Virus record (IMG/VR): IMGVR_UViG_3300021437_000050
Coordinates: 1 to 38,921 of that record
Reading direction: 5' to 3' (one strand)
DNA length: 38,921 nt
Origin: a virus
Below the pieces are notes generated by a model. That model ran no database searches, was not told the origin of the DNA, and saw only the letters and a list, made by a program, of their open reading frames with translations. How positions within the stretch are numbered: the stretch's first letter is position 1; the number at the start of each line of letters is the position of its first letter. Shown here piece after piece: positions 9,090 through 27,189 of this stretch. Position numbers and translations under genes: made by a program.

Positions 9090-9404
9090 CTATTCCTGCC
9101 ATTTTTTTGGCATCCTCTTCACCGTTAGATAACCTCCCTGGAGAAGCCATATGGTTGTGTCATAAACACAATGATAGAAGTCTTCCTGAACTCGCGGTTC
9201 TTTCCAGTGTTCATCAATGTATTTGTGGCATTTATCACAAAGGAAGGCTAATAGATCATGAGACTTATGGCTTACCCCATGCCCATCCGATATGGCATTT
9301 GAATGGCACCCCACTACTGTACCATCATTGGGCTTCTTACATAAAAAGCAGTGGGGAGAGTCTTGCGCTAAATCGCGCATGATTTGGCTTCGGTAAGGGT
9401 TCAT
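9090..9404 (-). CDS. DUF1364-like zinc-binding nuclease (104 aa)
   Basis: ATG 9404 after AAAGGATAAAAT. It contains CFLCKK (about residues 19-24), GCHSNAISDGHGVSHKSHD (about 32-50) and CDKCHKYID (about 56-64). This C-x2-C ... CH-x-N ... G-x-G-x-K-x-x-D ... C-x2-CH-x-x-ID pattern matches the phage DUF1364 family, a compact HNH-like recombination/endonuclease group related in context to lambdoid nin-region genes. It lies beside another nuclease, suggesting a recombination or host-DNA-processing module. Confidence 0.7.
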   Translation of the reverse strand: MNPYRSQIMRDLAQDSPHCFLCKKPNDGTVVGCHSNAISDGHGVSHKSHDLLAFLCDKCHKYIDEHWKEPRVQEDFYHCVYDTTIWLLQGGYLTVKRMPKKWQE

Positions 9405-9862: not shown

Positions 9863-10174
9863 TTCATTCCGCAGGATGGAACCTTGCAGCCCCTTTCGCT
9901 TCAGATAGTCAATTGCCCGGTCAGGCAAACCATGTTCTGGTGCGACCTTCCTGAGCGAACTGGCGAGACTGCGAACAAGCATCGACAAGTCGTCAATTTC
10001 CCGTTTCCATTCTCCCCAGCAACAGTCTCCAACAGCCGTTTCAAGGTTCATGGTTCCCTGGCACCAAAGACAGGTCCCTTCCTCGCCTAACCCGGCGCTC
10101 GACTCTGACGTTGCCTGTGCCGACTGGTTAAACGTTCGCATGTCCTCTTTCATGGCTTTCTCAATCTCACTCAT
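9857..10174 (-). CDS. Cassette 1 gene: unknown 105-aa protein with C-x2-C
   Basis: ATG 10174 lies in the loop of attC1 behind AAAGGAGACGAA. The first ~40 codons (MSEIEKAMKEDMRTFNQSAQ, then TSESSAGLGEE) are encoded by the attC loop and L''/R'' arm. The cassette body adds CLWCQGTMNLETAVGDCC, a likely zinc site, then a helical region (EIDDLSMLVRSLASSLRKV) and LPDRAIDYLKRKG. The stop TAA is formed by TTA 9857-9859, the first bases of the cassette. Function unknown. Confidence 0.7.
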   Translation of the reverse strand: MSEIEKAMKEDMRTFNQSAQATSESSAGLGEEGTCLWCQGTMNLETAVGDCCWGEWKREIDDLSMLVRSLASSLRKVAPEHGLPDRAIDYLKRKGLQGSILRNEA

Positions 10175-10218
10175 TTCGTCTCCTTTCCGGCAACGCCGGT
10201 CAGCTTGAGCCGTTAGGC
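10085..10218 (+). other. attC1
   Basis: R'' GCCTAAC 10085-10091, L'' CTCGACTCTGACGTTGCC, L' GGCAACGCCGGTCAGCTTG, R' GTTAGGC 10212-10218. 134 bp. The loop carries the ribosome site and start of the cassette 1 gene. Confidence 0.85.
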
Positions 10219-10515
10219 GCGCCCACATTGCTCCCGCAAACGTGCGATCCACTTACCCGGCAACGTAGATTTGACAACATCCTCGAAATCATCCCGCATC
10301 CGCTGTCCACACACTTGGCAGAAATATCCATTTTCGTTTTTGCGAACATCCTCAAAGCCGCATTTCGCAGGGATTCTATTTTTTGACAGGTATAGAAAGT
10401 CATCCAGATCAGGGTGTTACGATGGCAGGCTATCCCACTCATCGCCTAACCCTTGCTTCAACCCGGACGTTACCTCCACGGGCTGCTGTTCTCCTTCGGC
10501 CTTTTGGATTTCCAT
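10213..10515 (-). pseudogene. Cassette 2 gene: zinc-ribbon-like protein interrupted by an in-frame TAA
   Basis: ATG 10515 in the attC2 loop follows GGAGGGAGC. The frame reads MEIQKAEGEQQPVEVTSGLK ... EWDSLPS, meets TAA at 10417-10419 (codon 33), then continues open in the same frame for 67 codons: HPDLDDFLYLSKNRIPAKCG, GYFCQVCGQRMRDDFEDV, ending CGRA with TAA exactly at the crossover (10213). The conserved-looking C-x2-C region lies after the stop. It may be a nonsense mutation, a base error or a suppressed stop. A different-frame ORF covering 10200-10442 is less protein-like. Confidence 0.6.
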
Positions 10516-10568
10516 GCTCCCTCCAAGGTTTCGGCGTCGGTAACGCCGGTTAAGCTCTTTCGTTAGGC
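10444..10568 (+). other. attC2
   Basis: R'' GCCTAAC 10444-10450, L'' TTCAACCCGGACGTTACC, L' GGTAACGCCGGTTAAGCTC, R' GTTAGGC 10562-10568. 125 bp. L'' has two bases (C and A) with no partner in L', as expected for extrahelical bases. Confidence 0.88.
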
Positions 10569-10862
10569 GCGGTCCATCTCATGCAGAAAAAGGTTTCGAT
10601 CCAACGTGTCTTCCCGGTCCTTCGCGCTCCGGTCTTCCCAATCGTCTTGGAGGTGCCCAAAATCTCGGGGTTCCGTCACGCTGGCTTCATGCCCACAAAT
10701 CCCACATGTACCGGAGTGCCAGCTCGAAACGGCGCAGATTCTCCGGCGTCCATACTTCGCGCCGCACATCGAGCAAACCCATGCGGGATATGGTCGCCTA
10801 ACCAATCGTTGAACCCGGACGTTACCCGCACCGTCCACCTTCGATCCGTTATCCTGTTCCAT
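10563..10862 (-). CDS. Cassette 3 gene: double C-x2-C zinc-ribbon protein (99 aa)
   Basis: ATG 10862 in the attC3 loop after GAGAGGAGAACGAACA. The N-terminus (MEQDNGSKVDGAGNVRVQRL) is read through the attC arm. The body has CSMCGAKYGRRR and CGICGHEASVTEP, a probable two-knuckle zinc ribbon, then an acidic tail (DDWEDRSAKDREDTLDRN). The stop TAA lies at the crossover. Many small DNA- or RNA-binding phage proteins have this layout, but the target is unknown. Confidence 0.72.
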   Translation of the reverse strand: MEQDNGSKVDGAGNVRVQRLVRRPYPAWVCSMCGAKYGRRRICAVSSWHSGTCGICGHEASVTEPRDFGHLQDDWEDRSAKDREDTLDRNLFLHEMDRA

Positions 10863-10922
10863 TGTTCGTTCTCCTCTCAAGATTCAGCCGCGTGTAACGC
10901 CGGTTAACTCCCATCGTTAGGC
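10796..10922 (+). other. attC3
   Basis: R'' GCCTAAC 10796-10802, L'' TTGAACCCGGACGTTACC, L' TGTAACGCCGGTTAACTC, R' GTTAGGC 10916-10922. 127 bp; gene start in the loop. Confidence 0.88.
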
Positions 10923-11078
10923 ATCATTCAGCGCTGTTGCTGCAATGTCGTACATTGCGTGTGAATTCGTTTCCTTAACGATCATTTCAAGGGCTTGCCT
11001 ATAGCGTTCAAGTCTTTCTTCAAGCGCTGAAATCTCGTCTTCCAGCGCTTCCATTTCATTCATTTCGTCCTTGGCCAT
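10917..11078 (-). CDS. Cassette 4 gene: short coiled-coil protein (53 aa)
   Basis: ATG 11078 after AAAAAGGAGAAGCG, outside attC4, unlike cassettes 1-3. The sequence (MAKDEMNEMEALEDEISALE, ERLERYRQALEMIVKE) is a clear heptad coiled coil. It stops at TAA 10917-10919, at the crossover point. Function unknown; a dimerising antagonist or scaffold is possible. Confidence 0.7.
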   Translation of the reverse strand: MAKDEMNEMEALEDEISALEERLERYRQALEMIVKETNSHAMYDIAATALNDA

Positions 11079-11104
11079 CGCTTCTCCTTTTTAGATTCGT
11101 CCCC

Positions 11105-11192
11105 GCCTAACCTGGGCTTCAACTTGCGTTCGCTACGCTCACCGGACGCTTCCGCTACGCTCCAGCGCCGAGTTAAGCCCTGGGCGTTGGGC
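11105..11192 (+). other. attC4 with an 18-bp insertion in L''
   Basis: R'' GCCTAAC 11105-11111 and R' GTTGGGC 11186-11192. L'' reads TTCAAC, then an 18-bp insert (11124-11141), then CCGGACGCT. The outer arms CTGGGCTTCAACT and AGTTAAGCCCTGG pair well. 88 bp, no gene start in the loop. Confidence 0.82.
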
Positions 11193-11195
11193 GAC

Positions 11196-11396
11196 TCAGC
11201 GGCACATCGCCTGTGTGTGTCTCCACTCGGTTTCATGTTCGGTGTAGCCCTTGCGTTCGTTCTCCCACTCAGACCGCAAAACGGATACGGCGACACCACC
11301 ACAGGGTTTCCACCCTTTCCCTTCTTCTATCTTTTCATTCACCAATAGCTCAAGCGCCTCGGCGTTATTGGCTTCAAGCAGCATGTATGTTTTCAT
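11196..11396 (-). CDS. Cassette 5 gene: unknown 66-aa protein
   Basis: Start ATG 11396 (MKTYMLLEANNAEALELLVN) after TTTAAGGAGATAAAG. A longer frame from GTG 11471, translated through attC5, is open but has no better site. The body EKIEEGKGWKPCGGVAVSVL looks like a compact alpha/beta fold of the sort seen in short DUF1737-like proteins (helix, then E-G-W-x-P-x-G-G strand), a resemblance only. Stop TGA at 11196. Confidence 0.68.
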   Translation of the reverse strand: MKTYMLLEANNAEALELLVNEKIEEGKGWKPCGGVAVSVLRSEWENERKGYTEHETEWRHTQAMCR

Positions 11397-11416
11397 CTTT
11401 ATCTCCTTAAAGAGTC

Positions 11417-11540
11417 GCTCAACCCATCGTTCAACCCGGACGCTGCCTCCACTGGCAACCTCCTCCTCCACTCATCCGGATTTCTCGTCTCCTTCCAGCG
11501 CGCCGCAGTCGGCACCGCCGGTTAACTCCATACGTTAGGC
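11417..11540 (+). other. attC5
   Basis: R'' GCTCAAC 11417-11423 complements its own cassette's R' GTTGGGC at all but one position, unlike the common GCCTAAC. L'' TTCAACCCGGACGCTGCC, L' GGCACCGCCGGTTAACTC, R' GTTAGGC 11534-11540. 124 bp. Confidence 0.88.
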
Positions 11541-11945
11541 TGGCCCATCACCAATACAGTTGTTCGCCCGTTCCTTAACCCAAGCGATAGCCTCTCCAAT
11601 CGTTTTGCTTTCAGAGTCCCGAACATCGAAGCCGCCCGATGCAAGCCAGAACTTTCCTTCTGGATCTCGATACCCGGCTTCAATGTCTCTCCATCCAAAT
11701 CCAGTCATACGGTCTAAAACCGTAAGGCTTCCAAGATTTGTATGCAGAGCAAATTGATAGTCATCTTCCCAGCGGGGAACTTCGTGAAATAGTTCTCCAG
11801 AAAAAACGGATTCAAACGTCGCGTTCCGATAACATTCTTTCCCGTGTTGGTTGATGTATTTCTCCATCTCCCCATCGGGCCTAACCAGGCCCTTCAACTC
11901 GGACGCGGCCTGTGTCGGTTGCGTACTTCCATTTTCCTCGCTCAA
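11535..11945 (-). CDS. Cassette 6 gene: unknown 136-aa protein
   Basis: TTG 11945 in the attC6 loop, 6 nt after AAAGGAG; the same MSE- start as cassettes 1 and 7 supports TTG. The attC arm encodes QPTQAASELKGLVRP. The body is beta-rich (YQFALHTNLGSLTVLDRM, GFGWRDIEAGYRDPEGKFWL, ASGGFDVRD) and ends in a helix (IGEAIAWVKERANNC). The strand-rich W/G pattern recalls small phage proteins of unknown role. TAA falls exactly at the crossover. Confidence 0.7.
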   Translation of the reverse strand: MSEENGSTQPTQAASELKGLVRPDGEMEKYINQHGKECYRNATFESVFSGELFHEVPRWEDDYQFALHTNLGSLTVLDRMTGFGWRDIEAGYRDPEGKFWLASGGFDVRDSESKTIGEAIAWVKERANNCIGDGPA

Positions 11946-12004
11946 TGTTTTCTCCTTTCACAATGGTTTCGCTGGGCCACGCCGGTTAAGGCCGAACGTT
12001 AGGC
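11879..12004 (+). other. attC6
   Basis: R'' GCCTAAC 11879-11885, L'' TTCAACTCGGACGCGGCC, L' GGCCACGCCGGTTAAGGC, R' GTTAGGC 11998-12004. 126 bp; loop contains the TTG start of the cassette 6 gene. Confidence 0.87.
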
Positions 12005-12256
12005 CCACTTATCCGAGAGCCAATCTTGAAGACTGCTTTCTGTTATTTTCTCGACCAGCGAATCACACTTATTCCCTCCATAATCCCATGCGATTCTGGC
12101 GCACCGTTCGCGCTCGGCCCTCACTCCTGCTGTATATGCCTCATAAACATTGGTAACGACTGCTCCGCACGGCATCACCGCCCCGGCAGCGCCTAGCCCA
12201 GCGCTCGACCTTGACGCAGCCTCGGGTGTCAAACCATTTTCAGTGTTCTCACTCAT
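11999..12256 (-). CDS. Cassette 7 gene: unknown 85-aa protein
   Basis: ATG 12256 in the attC7 loop after GGAGGAGAAAACG. The attC arm gives MSENTENGLTPEAASRSSAG. The body has AVVTNVYEAYTAGVRAERER, then CARIAWDYGGNKCD and a C-terminal helix to DKWA. The region YTAGVRAERERCARIA is frequent in short phage proteins, without assigned function. TAA at the crossover. Confidence 0.7.
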   Translation of the reverse strand: MSENTENGLTPEAASRSSAGLGAAGAVMPCGAVVTNVYEAYTAGVRAERERCARIAWDYGGNKCDSLVEKITESSLQDWLSDKWA

Positions 12257-12315
12257 CGTTTTCTCCTCCGTCCGGCATTGTCCTGGGCTGCGCTGGTCAG
12301 CTTGATACGTTAGGC
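12191..12315 (+). other. attC7
   Basis: R'' GCCTAGC 12191-12197 (one base off RYYYAAC), L'' CTCGACCTTGACGCAGCC, L' GGCTGCGCTGGTCAGCTTG, R' GTTAGGC 12309-12315. 125 bp. Confidence 0.82.
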
Positions 12316-12324
12316 CACACCCTC

Positions 12325-12540
12325 CTAGAATGTCTCGCACAATTCGCGCAATCGGGATTCCATGCGGTCTCTGTGCTCCGCGCATCTCGACCAATGCGCG
12401 TTCCCAGTTGTCATTTTCGCCCTTGAGGCACTAGGCTCTATTGATCCGCGCGTAAAAGCCGCTTTTGTGCTGGCCTCGGATGCCTTGATGAAATCCACTG
12501 CGGCTCGTTTAATGGCTTCCGCTTTTTCTGCCTGTGTCAT
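12325..12540 (-). CDS. Cassette 8 gene: helical unknown protein (71 aa)
   Basis: ATG 12540 after TTGGAGTCTAT, outside attC8. Sequence MTQAEKAEAIKRAAVDFIKA then AHWSRCAEHRDRMESRLREL: two amphipathic helices with a polar linker. TAG stop at 12325, 15 bp inside the cassette rather than at the crossover. Unknown function. Confidence 0.65.
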   Translation of the reverse strand: MTQAEKAEAIKRAAVDFIKASEASTKAAFTRGSIEPSASRAKMTTGNAHWSRCAEHRDRMESRLRELCETF

Positions 12541-12585
12541 ATAGACTCCAACTGTTAAGGATTGCTTAATTGTTCGTCCCGTGCA

Positions 12586-12649
12586 GCCTAACCAGTCGTT
12601 CGAGCGGAAGTCACCTCCGGTGCCTCCGCTCAACTCCGGAGCGTTAGGC
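12586..12649 (+). other. attC8 (short form)
   Basis: R'' GCCTAAC 12586-12592, arms GAGCGGAAGTCACC and GGTGCCTCCGCTC around a 3-nt loop, R' GTTAGGC 12643-12649. At 64 bp it is the most compact site and close to the classic 59-base-element form. It has no gene in its loop. Confidence 0.85.
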
Positions 12650-12832
12650 CGCACCATCAGCGGCAAGAACTTGTCCACAGGAGCAGCGAAATCTCAAGAG
12701 CGCGTCTCTGTGTGGAACTGCGATTTCAAACCGAATTCCGCAGGTTGGGCAGTAGTAAGTGCAGAAACAGTTTGTGATATCTCGGTAGATCATCTCGACT
12801 TGTTTGGGTTTTTTTGTGGCATTGGGGTGCAT
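12644..12832 (-). CDS. Gene at the right end of array 1: zinc-ribbon protein (62 aa)
   Basis: ATG 12832 after GTGGAGGAGTGATAATC. It has CPTCGIRFEI and CSCGQV, plus CFCTYYCPTC, likely a zinc ribbon. The TAA stop at 12644 is made by the last R' core, but no attC follows on its right, so this is either phage backbone or a cassette that lost its attC. Probably the original gene at whose 3' end the array was built. Confidence 0.7.
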   Translation of the reverse strand: MHPNATKKPKQVEMIYRDITNCFCTYYCPTCGIRFEIAVPHRDALLRFRCSCGQVLAADGAA

Positions 12833-15588: not shown

Positions 15589-16311
15589 TCATGCGGTTAT
15601 ACCCAAATGCTCGTTCTGTCCGCAGAACAGGCCGCACTCGGGAAGTTGAAGGTCGGTGATCCGTCCAGCGTCCGGTTGAAGCTGGCGAAGCGTGATCCCG
15701 TTGATGACTGTGGCCTTCAGGGATTCCTCCAGCGTGGCCATGCGCTCGAATACATCAGGGAAGTCGCGCCGAATCTTGTTCCAGTATCCCATGCCGCCCT
15801 TCACGCAGCCGATGCAGTTGGCATTGGCATAACCCAGGCGATACATGGCTGGGAGTTCAATCCCGACACCCTGGAGGATCTCGAAACATTCGGCCTTAGT
15901 GATGCCCTTCTCGATCAGTGGGAATCGGCTCTTAACCTCGAAGTTTTCAGTCTTGAATCGCCTGGCGCGGGCCTGTTCCTCGCTCGTGTAACCGAACACC
16001 TGAATGTCACCGTCCTGCTCGAAACGCTGGCGGACCTTTTTTTTGAGTTCTACGGTGCATAGGGCGCCCTTGGTCCCGTTGAGATACCGGCGCTGCTCCC
16101 AAACTGCCCAGGCATCCGGATATTTAGGCGAGGCCAGTTCCACGATGGGGCGTCCCAGCCAGCGGGAAATATCGTCAGCAAATCTCCAGTTATCCAAGTG
16201 CTCGTTCCCGATGACGCACCGGACTATAACCGTCTCGGGGTCATCCTGGAGGGTCAGCTTCGCAGCTACCGCAGAGGCAGCGCCGCAGCTAAACCATGCA
16301 ACCGTTCTCAT
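15589..16311 (-). CDS. Cassette 9 gene: PAPS-reductase-like / adenine nucleotide alpha-hydrolase family protein (240 aa)
   Basis: ATG 16311 (MRTVAWFSCGAASAVAAKLT) after AAAGGAGAAGG. Residues 7-13 (FSCGAAS) are a PP-loop variant (S-x-G-x-x-S) that binds ATP-type nucleotides. Later motifs are VIGNEHLDNWRF, GYTSEEQARARRF and ANCIGCVKGGMGYWNKIRRD, the last with the C-x2-C seen in phage PAPS-reductase-like proteins. The usual K-D of SGGKDS is absent, so sulfate reduction is unlikely; base or nucleotide modification is possible. It is by far the largest cassette. Confidence 0.8.
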   Translation of the reverse strand: MRTVAWFSCGAASAVAAKLTLQDDPETVIVRCVIGNEHLDNWRFADDISRWLGRPIVELASPKYPDAWAVWEQRRYLNGTKGALCTVELKKKVRQRFEQDGDIQVFGYTSEEQARARRFKTENFEVKSRFPLIEKGITKAECFEILQGVGIELPAMYRLGYANANCIGCVKGGMGYWNKIRRDFPDVFERMATLEESLKATVINGITLRQLQPDAGRITDLQLPECGLFCGQNEHLGITA

Positions 16312-16336
16312 CCTTCTCCTTTCATCTCGGTTCGCC

Positions 16337-16432
16337 ACCTAACCCGGTCGTTCAACCCGGACGCTGCCCAATCCGGCAAGTTGTAGGGTTTCGGTTAACC
16401 GGGGCAGCGCCGGTTAACTCCATACGTTAGGC
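16337..16432 (+). other. attC9
   Basis: R'' ACCTAAC 16337-16343 (CACCTAAC with one flank), exactly complementary to its cassette's own R' (GTTAGGTG at 15572). L'' TTCAACCCGGACGCTGCC, L' GGCAGCGCCGGTTAACTC, R' GTTAGGC 16426-16432. 96 bp; no gene start inside. Confidence 0.9.
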
Positions 16433-19160: not shown

Positions 19161-19658
19161 TCACATGGAGGATGCTTTGGCTTCCTCTTTGGTAATAAAA
19201 TTGGGCTTTGCGTATTCGCCCCAGGCTGCAAGGGCTGCCAAATCATAAGCCCTGGCAGCGTCCTCTTCGTTGTCGAATCTACCAAGCATTTTGTGTTTAT
19301 AGTTGATCTTTATTTGTGCGATCCATTTTGACCTATTCTTATCCCAAGTAACCCCCTTGAATCTAGATAAGCCGGTAAATGATCGACCAAATGCTATATT
19401 TTGCCTATGTTCGCACACCCGGAGATTGGACCTCCGATTATCTAACCCATTGCCATTGATGTGATCTACAACCATACCCTTGGGAGCATTGGTTAACACG
19501 CGGTGCATCCAGATTTGAACATGGTTGCCAATATATGCATACGCATACGCTAGTCTTCCACGTTTTGCTGCATTCCACTTAAACGGAGAGACGGATAGTA
19601 GGTCTTCCTCGTCCAATATAATGTCTCCAAGTTTTGTGGGTATGATTATGGCTGCCAT
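19161..19658 (-). CDS. HNH homing-type endonuclease with AP2 DNA-binding domain (165 aa)
   Basis: ATG 19658 (MAAIIIPTKLGDIILDEEDL). The HNH core is VDHINGNGLDNRRSNLRVCE (about residues 65-84), with H for metal and N-x3-N-L-R as usual. The C-terminal FKGVTWDKNRSKWIAQIKIN ... FDNEEDAARAYDLAAL is an AP2/ERF domain. This pairing is typical of free-standing phage homing endonucleases that cut DNA lacking the gene. It overlaps the upstream gene end by 13 bases. The order of domains and length are normal. Confidence 0.93.
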   Translation of the reverse strand: MAAIIIPTKLGDIILDEEDLLSVSPFKWNAAKRGRLAYAYAYIGNHVQIWMHRVLTNAPKGMVVDHINGNGLDNRRSNLRVCEHRQNIAFGRSFTGLSRFKGVTWDKNRSKWIAQIKINYKHKMLGRFDNEEDAARAYDLAALAAWGEYAKPNFITKEEAKASSM

Positions 19659-22169: not shown

Positions 22170-22219
22170 CGTCACATCCGCATGCCACGTCACGTCACAT
22201 CTGACCCGCTACGTCACAT
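22170..22219 (+). repeat. CGTCACAT repeats
   Basis: CGTCACAT at 22170, 22193 and 22212, and a partial CGTCAC at 22188. Spacings are 18-23 bp. Possible operator or origin-type iterons. Confidence 0.55.
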
Positions 22220-22364
22220 ATCACTATAGTAAGTGGGCGGAAATGCTTCCCGCGGAGCAAAACCCTCTCCACAACATGTATAACCCTAAAGAAAGAAGAA
22301 AGAGACTAGAACACCTCTAGACTCCCCTCAGAATTACTCTAAAAGTTAATTAGATCCCCCTCCC

Positions 22365-22405
22365 AAAGTAACCTCAAAAGTAACCTCAAAAGAAAAGTAA
22401 CCTCA
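22365..22405 (+). repeat. AAAGTAACCTCA repeats
   Basis: Three exact 12-bp copies start at 22365, 22377 and 22394; the first two are in perfect tandem. Function unknown; probably a binding array in the control region. Confidence 0.65.
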
Positions 22406-22639
22406 TTTCCCGCGCATCTTCCAAGTGTATACTTTTTAGTCACCTAGCCTGGGTGCTACTTAACTCTTCATATTGTTAGACCTTAGTTTGTGATAACTGA
22501 CTTTATGTAACCTAGAAACCTAGTTGAGATTCATGCCTAGCAACTACCCTGAGGGTAGCTTTACCTCAATTAAGGGGGTAGCGAGGAACGTGGTTGTGGC
22601 CTTACCGCTCTCAATATTGTTGAGAAAATAGAAGAGGGG

Positions 22640-22667
22640 TTTACAAATGAGGGAACGCATTTATACT
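22640..22667 (+). promoter_or_regulatory. Rightward sigma70-type promoter
   Basis: TTTACA (22640-22645), 16-bp spacer, TATACT (22662-22667), 18 bp upstream of the ATG at 22686. The spacer contains AATGAGGGAACGCAT (22646-22660), repeated exactly at 22890-22904. Confidence 0.7.
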
Positions 22668-22685
22668 TAAGAAGGGGAGAATGAG

Positions 22686-22928
22686 ATGCCAGGGAAGAAG
22701 CTGGTCAAGAGGCCAAAGAGTGAGATAGAATGCGAGTTTTGCGGTAAGAGGTTCATGCAGACTCGCTGGTGGCAAGTGTTTTGTTCAAGAGGGTGCAAGG
22801 AGAAGAGCAGTGCGACTGCAAAGCAGGAAGTTAGGACACTCCGTTTAGAGGTCGAAGGATTGAAGAAACAGCTCAAAGAAGCCCTCAAGAATGAGGGAAC
22901 GCATAATCAATTACAATGGGGGGATTGA
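22686..22928 (+). CDS. Zinc-finger protein with coiled-coil tail, possible regulator (80 aa)
   Basis: ATG 22686 after AAGGGGAGAATGAG. CEFCGKRFMQTRWWQVFCSR followed by GC is a C-x2-C ... C-x3-C zinc finger of the type seen in many short phage proteins. The C-terminal half (VRTLRLEVEGLKKQLKEALK) is a leucine-heptad coiled coil, so it is likely dimeric. First gene after the rightward promoter, so it may control that promoter. Confidence 0.72.
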   Translation: MPGKKLVKRPKSEIECEFCGKRFMQTRWWQVFCSRGCKEKSSATAKQEVRTLRLEVEGLKKQLKEALKNEGTHNQLQWGD

Positions 22929-22929
22929 A

Positions 22930-23073
22930 ATGACTTGGAACTATAGAGTGATTAAAGAGGATGGTCAGGACCATCTCTACATCGCACCTGTTTATTATAA
23001 AGAGGTTTACGATCCAGAGACAGCTTCATACCGTGCTCATCCTGCGGGTAGTCACTCAGAGAAAACAGAATGA
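22930..23073 (+). CDS. Unknown small protein (47 aa)
   Basis: ATG 22930 after GGGGGATTGAA: MTWNYRVIKEDGQDHLYIAP, VYYKEVYDPETASYRAHPAG. The M-x-W-N-Y-R-V-[IV] opening with repeated Tyr is frequent in short phage and bacterial proteins. Stop overlaps the next start (ATGA). Confidence 0.62.
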   Translation: MTWNYRVIKEDGQDHLYIAPVYYKEVYDPETASYRAHPAGSHSEKTE

Positions 23074-23414
23074 GATACCTGATTGCCATCCTAACTGCTT
23101 CCAGCCTCTTTGCTGCTGGCTGGACCCCACAAGACACTGCTCGGGAGTCTGTGTTTATGGGGACGCTTCTGTTTGACTGGGCACAGACTCGACAGATCCA
23201 AGGGCATCCTGAGAGGTGGAGGGAATTTAACCCTCTTATAGGTCATCAGCCAGCCCAGGTAAACTGTTACTTCCTTGCCTCTGCCGTTCTCCATGCTTCG
23301 ATTGCCTATGCTCTTCCCCCTTCCTGGCGGCATGTTTGGCAGTATGTGTGGATCGGACAGGAAGCTGCTTGTATCGGTAATAACTATTCCATTGGCGTCA
23401 GGGTCTCCTTCTGA
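23070..23414 (+). CDS. Phage membrane protein (114 aa)
   Basis: ATG 23070 (MRYLIAILTASSLFAAGW), a signal-like first hydrophobic segment. The pattern LLFDWAQTRQI, FNPLIGHQPAQVNCYFLASA, LPPSWRHVWQYVWIGQEA and IGVRVSF matches a short membrane protein found widely in tailed phages (D-x-x-Q-T, E-x-N-P-x-[IL]-G, V-N-x-Y-F, E). Two to three membrane segments. Role unknown; possibly envelope or lysis control. Confidence 0.72.
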   Translation: MRYLIAILTASSLFAAGWTPQDTARESVFMGTLLFDWAQTRQIQGHPERWREFNPLIGHQPAQVNCYFLASAVLHASIAYALPPSWRHVWQYVWIGQEAACIGNNYSIGVRVSF

Positions 23415-23415
23415 C

Positions 23416-23426
23416 TACTTTTTAGT
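23416..23426 (+). promoter_or_regulatory. TACTTTTTAGT box, copy 2
   Basis: TACTTTTTAGT within TGACTA-CTTTT-TAGTCA, just after the membrane protein stop. Same 11-mer at 22430-22440 and 24461-24471. Confidence 0.5.
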
Positions 23427-23433
23427 CATTATC

Positions 23434-23462
23434 TTGACGTGTTAATAGATAAGTTGTATCTT
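23434..23462 (+). promoter_or_regulatory. Rightward sigma70-type promoter
   Basis: TTGACG (23434-23439), 17-bp spacer, TATCTT (23457-23462). It lies in the 80-bp gap before the gene at 23495. Confidence 0.6.
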
Positions 23463-23494
23463 CCAGTTGGGTTGGTTCCCATATTGGAGGATTG

Positions 23495-23641
23495 ATGGTT
23501 TCTGTTCTTATGAAGAAGGATGATGAGCTTGGCTGGAGGCTTATTGGAGTTTATGAAGAGGAGGAGAGTATGCCTTCTGTCGAAGGAGGCCTTGTTTTTG
23601 TCCTTTCCAATGTCACTCCTTCGGCTTTTGACCCCTTCTAG
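23495..23641 (+). CDS. Unknown small acidic protein (48 aa)
   Basis: ATG 23495 after TTGGAGGATTG. MVSVLMKKDDELGWRLIGVY, then EEEESMPSVE and a hydrophobic strand (GLVFVLSNV). Unknown. Confidence 0.62.
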   Translation: MVSVLMKKDDELGWRLIGVYEEEESMPSVEGGLVFVLSNVTPSAFDPF

Positions 23642-23643
23642 CC

Positions 23644-23820
23644 GTGTCAGATAGGGTTTGTATTATCTGTGGCTTGCCTCTTGGCAAAAAGAGGAAGCAT
23701 GCGCTTTATTGCTCTAATGACTGTAGGTTCTTCGCTTTTTATGAGAAGAGGGTCGATGAACGGGTAGAAAAGGCCAAACCTGCCCTGGTTGGCTTGAGAG
23801 TCTTCAATGCCAAGAACTAA
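23644..23820 (+). CDS. Zinc-finger mini-protein (58 aa)
   Basis: GTG 23644, 2 bases after the previous stop. CIICGLPLGKKRKHALYCSN then DC: a C-x2-C ... C-x3-C finger like that of the 22686 gene, followed by a basic helix. It overlaps the next start by 14 bases. No strong ribosome site, so coupling with the upstream gene is likely. Confidence 0.6.
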   Translation: MSDRVCIICGLPLGKKRKHALYCSNDCRFFAFYEKRVDERVEKAKPALVGLRVFNAKN

Positions 23821-24034
23821 GCCCTATACACCAAAAGGCATCACTAGAATTCCATGTTCCCATTGCGGTGAACCATCAGAATTCCAATGGATGGTAAGGG
23901 CTTGTGCAAAAGGAGGACCCCGTGAATGGCGGGGTCTTTGTTGGGATTGTGATACAACCCTAAATAGACTAGTGCTCGAATTTTTCAATGAAGTTGATGT
24001 GGCAAAGATGATGACTCTTTATGCCCAGGACTAA
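23807..24034 (+). CDS. Zinc-ribbon protein (75 aa)
   Basis: ATG 23807 (MPRTKPYTPKGITRIPCSHC). CSHCG and CWDCD form a probable zinc ribbon; the C-terminus is an acidic helix (TLNRLVLEFFNEVDVAKMMT). It overlaps the start of the next gene by 14 bases. Confidence 0.65.
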   Translation: MPRTKPYTPKGITRIPCSHCGEPSEFQWMVRACAKGGPREWRGLCWDCDTTLNRLVLEFFNEVDVAKMMTLYAQD

Positions 24035-24455
24035 AGGCGTTTTGAATCGGGCTACCCGTGATGCTTCTCCTAGAGAAGAAAAGAACCAGGTCGATATGGG
24101 GTTGGTCAAGGATATTGATGGGCAGGTCCTTGAATCCATGTCCAAGACCAACCGAATGCGCCTTACTCATTCCGATCCTACAAGTCTTTCTCTTCGCCAG
24201 GCCCAAACCGCAGGTGCTGAGTTTCTTGCCAACCTTGTTGGTCACCCCGAGTTTCGCAAGAACCTTATCGTTGCTGGCCTAAAAGATCCCATGTCACTAC
24301 TCAAGATCGCTTCCAGTGAAAGGCCCAAGGAAATCCATATGGAAGCAGACATCCAGCATTCCGTTGTCGTTGTACCTGCCCAGCTCTCAGCCGAAGATTG
24401 GACCAAACAAGTCAATACAATTGAAGGCGAAACGCTCAAGGAAGAAAACTGGTAA
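24021..24455 (+). CDS. Possible small terminase subunit (144 aa)
   Basis: ATG 24021 (MPRTKGVLNRATRDASPREE). The basic N-terminus resembles the [GP]-R-[PT]-K-G-x-x-N start of many small terminases. Helices in the middle (LRQAQTAGAEFLANLVGHPE) and a short acidic C-terminus (EDWTKQVNTIEGETL). It lies 1.3 kb upstream of TerL on the same strand. The assignment is by position and N-terminal style only. Confidence 0.5.
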   Translation: MPRTKGVLNRATRDASPREEKNQVDMGLVKDIDGQVLESMSKTNRMRLTHSDPTSLSLRQAQTAGAEFLANLVGHPEFRKNLIVAGLKDPMSLLKIASSERPKEIHMEADIQHSVVVVPAQLSAEDWTKQVNTIEGETLKEENW

Positions 24456-24460
24456 GTGAC

Positions 24461-24471
24461 TACTTTTTAGT
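24461..24471 (+). promoter_or_regulatory. TACTTTTTAGT box, copy 3
   Basis: Exact 11-mer 12 bp upstream of the holin-like gene, ahead of its AAGGAGG ribosome site. It could be part of a phage-specific regulatory site. Confidence 0.45.
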
Positions 24472-24482
24472 AAGGAGGATCT

Positions 24483-24701
24483 ATGTGGGTTTGGCTCAAG
24501 TCCTGGTTCAACCCCGAAGATAAACAGACAGACATTAAACTCCTGGCCTTCGTTTCGGTCGTGGTGTTTGCTATCTATAAATTGAATGCCACCGAACTTG
24601 ACGCTAATTGGACGAATGCCTTTTATGGCCTATGTGCTCTTGTTGGGTTGGGGGGGTCGGCGTGGGCGATTGTGGATAAATGGAAGGGGGGCCAAACCTG
24701 A
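24483..24701 (+). CDS. Holin-like protein with two TM segments (72 aa)
   Basis: ATG 24483 after AAGGAGGATCT. TM1 about residues 19-34 (LLAFVSVVVFAIYKL), TM2 about 45-65 (NAFYGLCALVGLGGSAWAIV), charged C-terminus (DKWKGGQT). Size and topology fit a class II-like holin. Its stop overlaps the next start (TGATG). It lies with a spanin-like gene, which supports a role in lysis. Confidence 0.68.
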   Translation: MWVWLKSWFNPEDKQTDIKLLAFVSVVVFAIYKLNATELDANWTNAFYGLCALVGLGGSAWAIVDKWKGGQT

Positions 24702-25111: not shown

Positions 25112-25747
25112 ATGAAACTATGGGACTTGATTAAACCTTTTTGGCAATGGATCGCACTAGCCCTTCTGATCGTTTTGGGCTACTCATTCTATAACTGGCA
25201 ACAGAAGATTGCCACAAACGCTGAGAACCAGTCTCAACTCCTCAAAGGTCAGATCCAAGTCAAAGTGGAGGAAGCTAATGCGCAGAAGGCGAAAGCGGAG
25301 GCTGCTGATCTCAAAGCTGTTGCGCTGGCAAAGGCCAACCAAGAGGCAGACCAGAAGGTTACTCTTGAACATGCCAAATCTGAAGCCCTTAAAAAGAAAC
25401 TCGCTGCCCTTGCTGGGCCTGGATTACTTCCTTTACCCTCTACCCCTTCTGATGACCCCGTGGTGCTGAGGGATCAGATCATTGCACAGCAAGATATTGA
25501 GATTCAGTCTCAACAAGTAGAGATCAAAGGCCTCAAGGAAGAGAACGGCCAACTTCGCCTAGAGGCAGATTCCTATAAGCAAAGTACCGAAGCCCTTGAG
25601 GCTAGTCTCAAACTCTCTGAACAGCGTGTCCGGGCTGAAGAGATCGCTAAGGATGCGATGAAGCGATCTGGGTTAGTCCGAGAGGGGAAGGGTATCCTTG
25701 AAGGTGGTGCAGCTGTCTTCCTTATGCATCTTTTGAAAGTGATTTGA
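25112..25747 (+). CDS. Putative inner-membrane spanin / coiled-coil membrane protein (211 aa)
   Basis: ATG 25112. An N-terminal TM (about residues 10-27, WQWIALALLIVLGYSFYNW) is followed by a long Ala/Lys/Glu/Gln-rich coiled coil (about 35-100), a Pro-rich break (GPGLLPLPSTPSDDP) and a second coiled coil (about 120-185). The C-terminus is weakly hydrophobic (GGAAVFLMHLLKVI). This matches an i-spanin layout, though it is longer than most. No lipobox o-spanin was found embedded. The stop overlaps the TerL start. Confidence 0.62.
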   Translation: MKLWDLIKPFWQWIALALLIVLGYSFYNWQQKIATNAENQSQLLKGQIQVKVEEANAQKAKAEAADLKAVALAKANQEADQKVTLEHAKSEALKKKLAALAGPGLLPLPSTPSDDPVVLRDQIIAQQDIEIQSQQVEIKGLKEENGQLRLEADSYKQSTEALEASLKLSEQRVRAEEIAKDAMKRSGLVREGKGILEGGAAVFLMHLLKVI

Positions 25748-27189
25748 TGGGTGTTATCTGGCAGCCGCAACCTAGACAGCGGCAAGTTATCTCATGCCCG
25801 TACGGGGAGATCCTCTATGGAGGAGCCGCAGGAGGTGGCAAGTCTGATTGTCTCCTTGGGGATTGGCTTGCGCATCAACAAACTTTTGGGGGGAATGCAA
25901 GGGGTGTGCTCTTCCGTAATAGTTATCCCGAACTCCAGGAAATCCTAGGACGTATGCATGTCGTATATGGCTCCATCGGCGCGAAATGGAGAGAGAAAGA
26001 CTCAACATGGACTTTCCCCAATGGGGCACAACAGCGACTTTCTTATTTGGATGGGTTTGAAGATGCACTGAAACATAGGGGGAATGCTTATAGTCACAGG
26101 GCGCATGATGAATTAACAATGAGACCAACTGATGAGGAATATGTATTCCTTGGCTCTCGCATGCGCTCTGCTCATGGCATCCCTTGCCGCACTATTTCTA
26201 CTAGCAACCCTGGCGGTCCCGGTCATACCTGGGTCATGAAGCGATTCCAGATTGATAAATTCCCAGTCGGGATGATCCCAATCCATGATTACTTAGATAT
26301 TGATAAAAACATTACTATTGAGGAAACCTCAAAATATGATAAGACACCTTCCAATGAACTTCCGGTTCATATACGAAGAAACACAAGGATCTTCATCCCA
26401 GGTAGACTGTCGGATAACAAATTCCTGGACAGTGATGGCCACTATCGCGCACATCTATTGGCTCTCCCCGAAGCCCAGCGTCGTATGCTGCTCGATGGGC
26501 GTTGGGACATTGTGGAGGGTGCGTTCTTCGATGAGTGGGATCCCACAATTCATGTAACTAAGGCTTTTGACCCTCCTGAAGGTTGGAAACGTTGGATGGG
26601 TGGCGACTGGGGAACATCTGCGCCCTATGCCTTTGTCTGGTTCTGCCAGTCTCCCCAAGGAGAAATCTTCCTTTATCGTGAACTCTATGGTTGCAAGCCG
26701 GGCAAGGAACGCGAAGGGGTTAGGGAGAGCCCAAAGGTTGTAGCTGAGAGGATTCTGGCTCTAGAATCCGAACATGATGAATATATCCCTGAACGCTGGC
26801 TTGACGCTTCGTGTTTTGATAATGAAGAATTAGGGACTTCGGTTAGTGAACAATTCCGCCAGAATGGTGTTTTCTTCCAGAAGAGCCAGAAGAAATTCAA
26901 ATCTGGCTCTATTGCCATGTTCAGAGACTATCTAACCGTAACCAACGGTGTTTGCCGGTTTAAGGTCATGGATAACTGCCATCATGTTACCCGGACTCTT
27001 CCTGGGCTCATGGTAGACCGAAACAATGTAGAACAGTACGATACAGATGGTGAGGACCATGCCGCAGATGCAATTATTTATGGTATACGCAGAAATATCA
27101 AGACCAAGGAAGAAATTGCCAAGGCGAGAGGTGTCGTTGATAGGAATCTACGTCTTGTAAAGCGGTATGGCGCATTTGGAGCGCACTGA
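25747..27189 (+). CDS. terL: Terminase large subunit (480 aa)
   Basis: ATG 25747 (TGATG coupling). ATPase domain: Walker A GGAAGGGKSD (about residues 25-34) and Walker B-type HDE (about 120-122), followed by a coupling motif (STSNPGGPGHT). Nuclease domain: GGDWGTSAPYAFVW (first Asp) and GEDHAADAIIYGI (last Asp pair). It translocates DNA into the prohead with the portal at 27314. Length is normal for the family. Confidence 0.95.
   Translation: MGVIWQPQPRQRQVISCPYGEILYGGAAGGGKSDCLLGDWLAHQQTFGGNARGVLFRNSYPELQEILGRMHVVYGSIGAKWREKDSTWTFPNGAQQRLSYLDGFEDALKHRGNAYSHRAHDELTMRPTDEEYVFLGSRMRSAHGIPCRTISTSNPGGPGHTWVMKRFQIDKFPVGMIPIHDYLDIDKNITIEETSKYDKTPSNELPVHIRRNTRIFIPGRLSDNKFLDSDGHYRAHLLALPEAQRRMLLDGRWDIVEGAFFDEWDPTIHVTKAFDPPEGWKRWMGGDWGTSAPYAFVWFCQSPQGEIFLYRELYGCKPGKEREGVRESPKVVAERILALESEHDEYIPERWLDASCFDNEELGTSVSEQFRQNGVFFQKSQKKFKSGSIAMFRDYLTVTNGVCRFKVMDNCHHVTRTLPGLMVDRNNVEQYDTDGEDHAADAIIYGIRRNIKTKEEIAKARGVVDRNLRLVKRYGAFGAH

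Follow-up and report, generated by a model that had tools for sequence, protein, structure and literature searches.

A repeated box ahead of rightward genes in a phage contig as the core of a candidate 17-bp operator near packaging genes

What kind of element is a short box that recurs three times on one strand of a virus contig, each time in a gap beside or ahead of rightward genes? The window, by which we mean the whole stretch of DNA analysed, is a virus contig from IMG/VR, 38,921 bases in length. It encodes a terminase large subunit, a portal of the phrog_332/phrog_1216 type and a phrog_1357 major head protein, and an annotated phage whose capsid is 32% identical labels that protein as N4-gp56 family. 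Leftward open reading frames (ORFs) extend up to ~21.8 kb and are followed by a rightward block. The leftward region also carries a phosphoadenosine phosphosulfate reductase gene on the minus strand (15589-16338; phrog_424, E 2.4e-47). The sites and the genes around them are as follows.

22426..22442, plus strand, site 1, TGTATACTTTTTAGTCA
22686..22928, plus strand, first rightward ORF of at least 50 aa past site 1, weakly similar to HNH-type families and to phage families that are unknown
23070..23414, plus strand, ORF whose end falls at site 2, without a family match
23412..23428, plus strand, site 2, TGACTACTTTTTAGTCA, arms perfectly palindromic
24021..24455, plus strand, ORF upstream of the terminase large subunit, possibly the small terminase subunit
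24457..24473, plus strand, site 3, TGACTACTTTTTAGTAA
24483..24701, plus strand, ORF beginning just past site 3, no family match
25744..27189, plus strand, terminase large subunit (phrog_979, E 9.7e-36)

The box, TACTTTTTAGT, was found exactly at 22430-22440, 23416-23426 and 24461-24471, always on the plus strand, as the first-pass annotation had reported, and the full record held these three exact copies and no others; the string TACTTTTTA was likewise confined to the same three places. The annotation had also placed every copy in a short gap ahead of rightward genes. All three do lie in gaps that separate rightward ORFs or precede them, with sites 2 and 3 in short intergenic gaps and site 1 in the larger gap that separates the leftward and rightward gene blocks, ~240 bases from the next rightward ORF of at least 50 aa. 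Site 2 starts where ORF 23070-23414 has its stop codon. Site 3 lies between ORF 24021-24455 and ORF 24483-24701, and its end falls inside AAGGAGG, 9 bases ahead of the ATG at 24483. The copy at 23416 is indeed part of TGACTA-CTTTT-TAGTCA, and each copy extends to a 17-bp imperfect palindrome (starts 22426, 23412 and 24457), copy 1 departing from that sequence at two positions and copy 3 at one. Pairing between the inverted half-sites is partial, at 4/6, 6/6 and 5/6 positions for sites 1, 2 and 3. Immediately ahead of site 1 stand three direct repeats of AAAGTAACCTCA (22364-22405), and two CGTCACAT-type repeats are found at 22183-22220; these repeats are possibly an origin or additional putative binding sites.

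The repeat was then set against chance. A first-order Markov sequence is expected to hold 0.013 copies of TACTTTTTAGT, and three copies were seen in 0/1000 such sequences. When all 11-mers are counted, the three-copy repeat by itself is not above chance, the number of different 11-mers with at least three copies per Markov sequence being 4.3 on average (n = 30; maximum, 9). The window holds 55 such 11-mers, many of them owed to a cassette array described below. Relaxed searches also stayed at the chance level, both for TACTTTTTAGT with 2 mismatches allowed (8 found versus 8.85 expected) and for the palindrome with 3 mismatches allowed (10 versus 10.95). Since the box repeat alone is at the chance level, its conservation in a relative, L027, carries the case.

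Viral contigs scanned for the 15-mer TGACTACTTTTTAGT gave 48 stretches. Among these, L027 alone counts as a true relative (55% for the terminase and 54% for the capsid), and it was itself retrieved through the box. L027 has the exact 17-mer of site 2 at 10004, another site that begins 19 bases further, and a third at 9242, 6 bases ahead of the listed start of its homologue of ORF 24021-24455. These sites stand ahead of rightward genes in the region matching that of the window; neither the site at 10004, which falls within a 62-aa ORF on the opposite strand, nor that at 9242, which overlaps the end of a listed 68-aa ORF, occupies a clean gap. A capsid-alignment scan recovered 9 related loci, and the collection scanned numbers 2.9 million contigs; a chance match to TGACTACTTTTTAGT within the related group is accordingly unlikely (p, ~0.0002 to 0.002, a rough figure that takes lengths as equal and undercounts relatives). 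On a matrix built from the three window sites only, the L027 sites scored 23.8, 15.4 (site 9242) and 12.3, and the highest score in 150 shuffled versions of L053, a longer locus, was 15.1, which is below the score of site 9242. The link between the window and L027 is supported.

Occurrence in other relatives, which the annotation had proposed as a check, gave a divided outcome: the site is present in L027, L053 has a weak look-alike, and L052, L069 and L073 lack it. The closest relative, L052/L056 (capsid, 82%), has no TACTTTTTA anywhere in its record and no matrix match in the stretches examined, and its sequence differs at the position aligned with site 1. L069 and L073, whose sequence continues far upstream of the terminase, lack the site, and L067, L068, L070 and L072 hold fewer than 800 bases upstream of the terminase, too short to tell. 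Relatives were obtained with the capsid as a single or aligned query; the terminase as a single query gave none among viruses. Across seven regions of annotated phages with a related capsid or terminase, the top matrix match was 16.6. ORF 24021-24455 is homologous to ORFs of L027, L052/L056 and L053; the family search gave no match for the window ORF or its L027 homologue, and the L053 homologue matched phrog_5334 weakly (E 0.00043). As a separate observation, the L052/L056 terminase large subunit (L052:1-2324 plus L056:9895-10285) matches for 25 residues before a long, possibly intein-type insert interrupts it; the ends of this record seem to be joined through the same gene.

Look-alike sites were also found in other phages. 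L028, L066 and L150 form one phage group, with 4, 3 and 3 tandem sites, respectively, spaced 17-20 bp apart, in arrays that end 7 bases short of a large ORF's start codon; in L028 this ORF matches phrog_332, like the portal of the window. The core ACTTTTTA is invariant in 10/10 of these array sites, some of which were found by patterns containing that core, and the outer bases vary. The whole 57-kb L028 record holds TACTTTTTA at its four array sites only, and the L028 array gave no match by BLAST against phages and plasmids. The L028 terminase contains an insert that looked intein-like by eye. L082, L107 and L111 share the same two sites, which in L082 lie between the terminase and portal genes. 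L053, which was retrieved by capsid, has two sites: one ends 8 bases ahead of the start codon (ATG) of an ORF with a weak likeness to small terminase subunits, and the other lies between portal-like and capsid genes. In L090, a neighbouring ORF resembling a small terminase subunit was considered and matched no family. More generally, 24/79 distinct matches to five site patterns were in gaps, and most viral seed matches were within ORFs; a matrix that includes the window sites found 15 additional sites in 91 loci, versus 7 in one shuffle of each.

A wide matrix was built from 12 sites of L028, L066, L150 and L082. It scored 23.9, 22.5, 17.9 and 16.6 in the window, the last at 2717 within a long ORF; 22.5, 20.6 and 19.2 in L027; and 22.9 and 16.7 in L053. 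No match scoring at least 14 was found in L052, L056, L054, L067, L068, L069, L070, L072 or L073. In 200 shuffles each, the mean number of matches scoring at least 18 was 0.035 for the window, 0 for L027 and 0 for L053, and none reached 20. Because the source records of this matrix were retrieved by likeness to the box, the scores of the window and L027 are circular. The wide-matrix result ties L053 to the L028 group (0/200 L053 shuffles reached 18), and this link is supported. On the window-only matrix, the best L053 site scored 12.3, which 23/150 shuffles reached and which is therefore at the chance level; over 10 loci, 4.4 matches are expected at that score, and L052, L053, L068 and L073 reach it. 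The bridge between the window and L027 on one side and the L028 group and L053 on the other thus depends above all on the exact 17-mer that they share. That bridge is suggestive only, and so is the assignment of the L028-group arrays and the L053 sites to the same site family.

Our preferred reading, which we hold tentatively and at somewhat less than an even chance, is that the box forms the core of a 17-bp candidate operator that would control the rightward packaging and head genes via a dimeric binding protein. We regard the site, which is distributed beside terminase and portal genes, as probably a genuine regulatory element of a familiar type that serves for the docking of a putative DNA-binding protein. 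The operator consensus would be approximately TGNNTA-CTTTT-TANNCA, to which a dimeric sequence-specific protein, phage or host encoded, would bind and thereby affect transcription of packaging and head genes, repression and activation being alike compatible. A dimeric binder would fit the partial palindromy, the gap position and the reversible orientation of the site. Along the direction of transcription, the asymmetric core reads CTTTT in 3/3 window copies and the opposite, AAAAG, in L027, as it does in the L028 group. Among the window ORFs scanned, no regulator was recognised and the sole clear DNA-binding match was an AP2/HNH endonuclease at 19161-19658; HTH_3 proteins were not found in 8 records (control, 14/14).

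The first-pass annotation had offered a phage-specific promoter element or an activator site. A cis-regulatory role has held up as plausible, with the 17-mer standing ahead of rightward genes in L027 as well; the promoter element is disfavoured, as discussed below. An activator site is possible. A sigma-70-like match (TTGACG-17-TATCTT, 23434..23462, plus strand) begins 5 bases past copy 2; promoter-like matches in the site 2 region are at the chance level (5 found versus 4.6 expected), the other three of four stretches giving 1, 1 and 1 versus 2.3, 0.6 and 0.2, and no such match lies beside site 3. If the operator reading is true, the site would offer a handle on late-gene control in a poorly known phage group and could be used as bait for the regulator. 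We consider it doubtful that a 17-bp TGNNTA-N5-TANNCA family with an A-tract core is a late-gene or packaging switch of several unrelated phage lineages, served by one widespread binder; if real, this wider family would connect unrelated phages through their late-gene control or their packaging.

Phage operators are a well-known kind of site, and in the RinA/Ltr type a phage regulator acts at the promoter of the packaging operon; the window sites are likened to the RinA/Ltr sites of staphylococcal phages by this role only. Late-gene regulator sites of those phages are treated in the available part of PMC13123087. The stoperators of Cluster A mycobacteriophages are, in the available part of PMC9262239, asymmetric sites of 13-14 bp that are present in many copies per genome and bound by a known repressor. 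Going by that portion, the window sites resemble them as short repeated sites in short intergenic gaps, but differ in being 17-bp near-palindromes, in numbering three and in the lack of a repressor among our findings. Stoperators keep one orientation to transcription within a genome, as do the three window sites, and the orientation of window-type sites differs between phages. Since a 17-bp near-palindrome is not an asymmetric site, we did not class the window sites as stoperators. In the literature, as far as the accessible text of the papers goes, the sequence strings of the site led to unrelated papers only, and none of the papers found on stoperators and terminase promoters showed the window site.

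The repeats might instead be a pac/cos-type recognition sequence, which the small terminase subunit would bind to start packaging. Proximity to terminase or portal-like genes, judged by eye, is shown by the sites of the window and of L027 and by the look-alikes in L053, the L028 group, L082, L097 and L137, and tandem arrays would suit an oligomeric binder. The window sites, however, are spread across 2 kb and three gaps, one L053 site lies between portal-like and capsid genes, and other look-alikes in gaps, such as that of L155, are away from terminase genes. We think terminase recognition unlikely.

Matches in cellular genomes bear on two further alternatives. A genome scan with TGWMTACTTTTTAGTCA gave at least 116 stretches, of which 80 were examined among the matches listed. 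The exact 17-mer of site 2 was present in 51/80 of these listed matches, GAGG/CCC hairpin flanks in 36/80, and perfect arms plus outward pairing to at least 4 positions in 37/80. These flanks and this pairing indicate that the exact palindrome has other uses. No regulon was visible among the matches listed, and the tandem-site pattern had 0 matches in genomes. Among the same listed matches (L173-L251), the contigs with GAGG/CCC flanks are mostly from Bacteroidales and carry TGACTACTTTTTAGTCA between GAGG/CCCTC flanks that pair. Roughly a dozen of these copies lie ~95-120 bases from the end of their contig, an arrangement resembling a terminator or the terminus of a repeated element. The Bacteroidales hairpin repeats thus share the identical 17-mer TGACTACTTTTTAGTCA with site 2 and differ in their pairing flanks, the window copies being without such an extension.

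That the phages have copied the site of a host transcription factor would fit both the lack of a recognised regulator among the scanned window ORFs and the range of GC contents of the look-alike records, from 0.32 (L082) to 0.57 (L150). Against it stand the genomes, where no regulon is visible and 36/80 of the listed matches are hairpin flanked, and we rate a host factor as distinctly unlikely. An equally slight likelihood attaches to a chance repeat: about 4 different 11-mers attain three copies in random windows, the closest relative is without the site, and the window-only matrix does not lift L053 above chance, but the exact 17-mer plus a further site in so rare a relative as L027, and the fall of all three window copies in gaps, argue otherwise.

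More improbable still is that the box acts as a phage-specific promoter element recognised by an RNA polymerase or sigma factor of the phage. All three copies share a strand with the genes that they precede across gaps, as such an element would. A directional promoter is disfavoured by the reversal of the core between the window and both L027 and the L028 group and by the tandem copies of the latter; RNA_pol (PF00940) had no match in 8 records, but its control also gave none. Finally, an RNA hairpin, terminator or transposon end, to which the exact and outward-paired genome matches, as in terminators and insertion-sequence ends, and a terminator-like stem at 23397-23415 running into copy 2 might point, is very improbable, because the folding of copies 1 and 3 does not exceed that of shuffles and that of copy 2 does so only weakly (z -1.6), leaving no stable stem at every copy; the stems at copies 2 and 3 are not extended and have no T run after them, and no transposase was recognised among the scanned window ORFs.

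The cassette array that accounts for many of the other repeated 11-mers lies in the leftward region. At least 6 attC-like sites (GCCTAAC ... GTTAGGC, with inner TTCAAC / GGTTAAC) occur at 10082-12660, 310-620 bases apart, and on sequence grounds they constitute an integron-type cassette array. A strict attC pattern was matched at 3 places, each on both strands (0.03 matches expected), and at none in 9 related records, several of which are fragments. Phage_integrase (PF00589) had no family match in the window record (control, 14/14); the available part of PMC9892861 describes virulent phages that have attC clusters but no integrase. On the minus strand at 10445-12004, the attC-like sites hold a ribosome-binding-like GGAG plus a start codon, so that the starts of leftward ORFs seem to lie within them.
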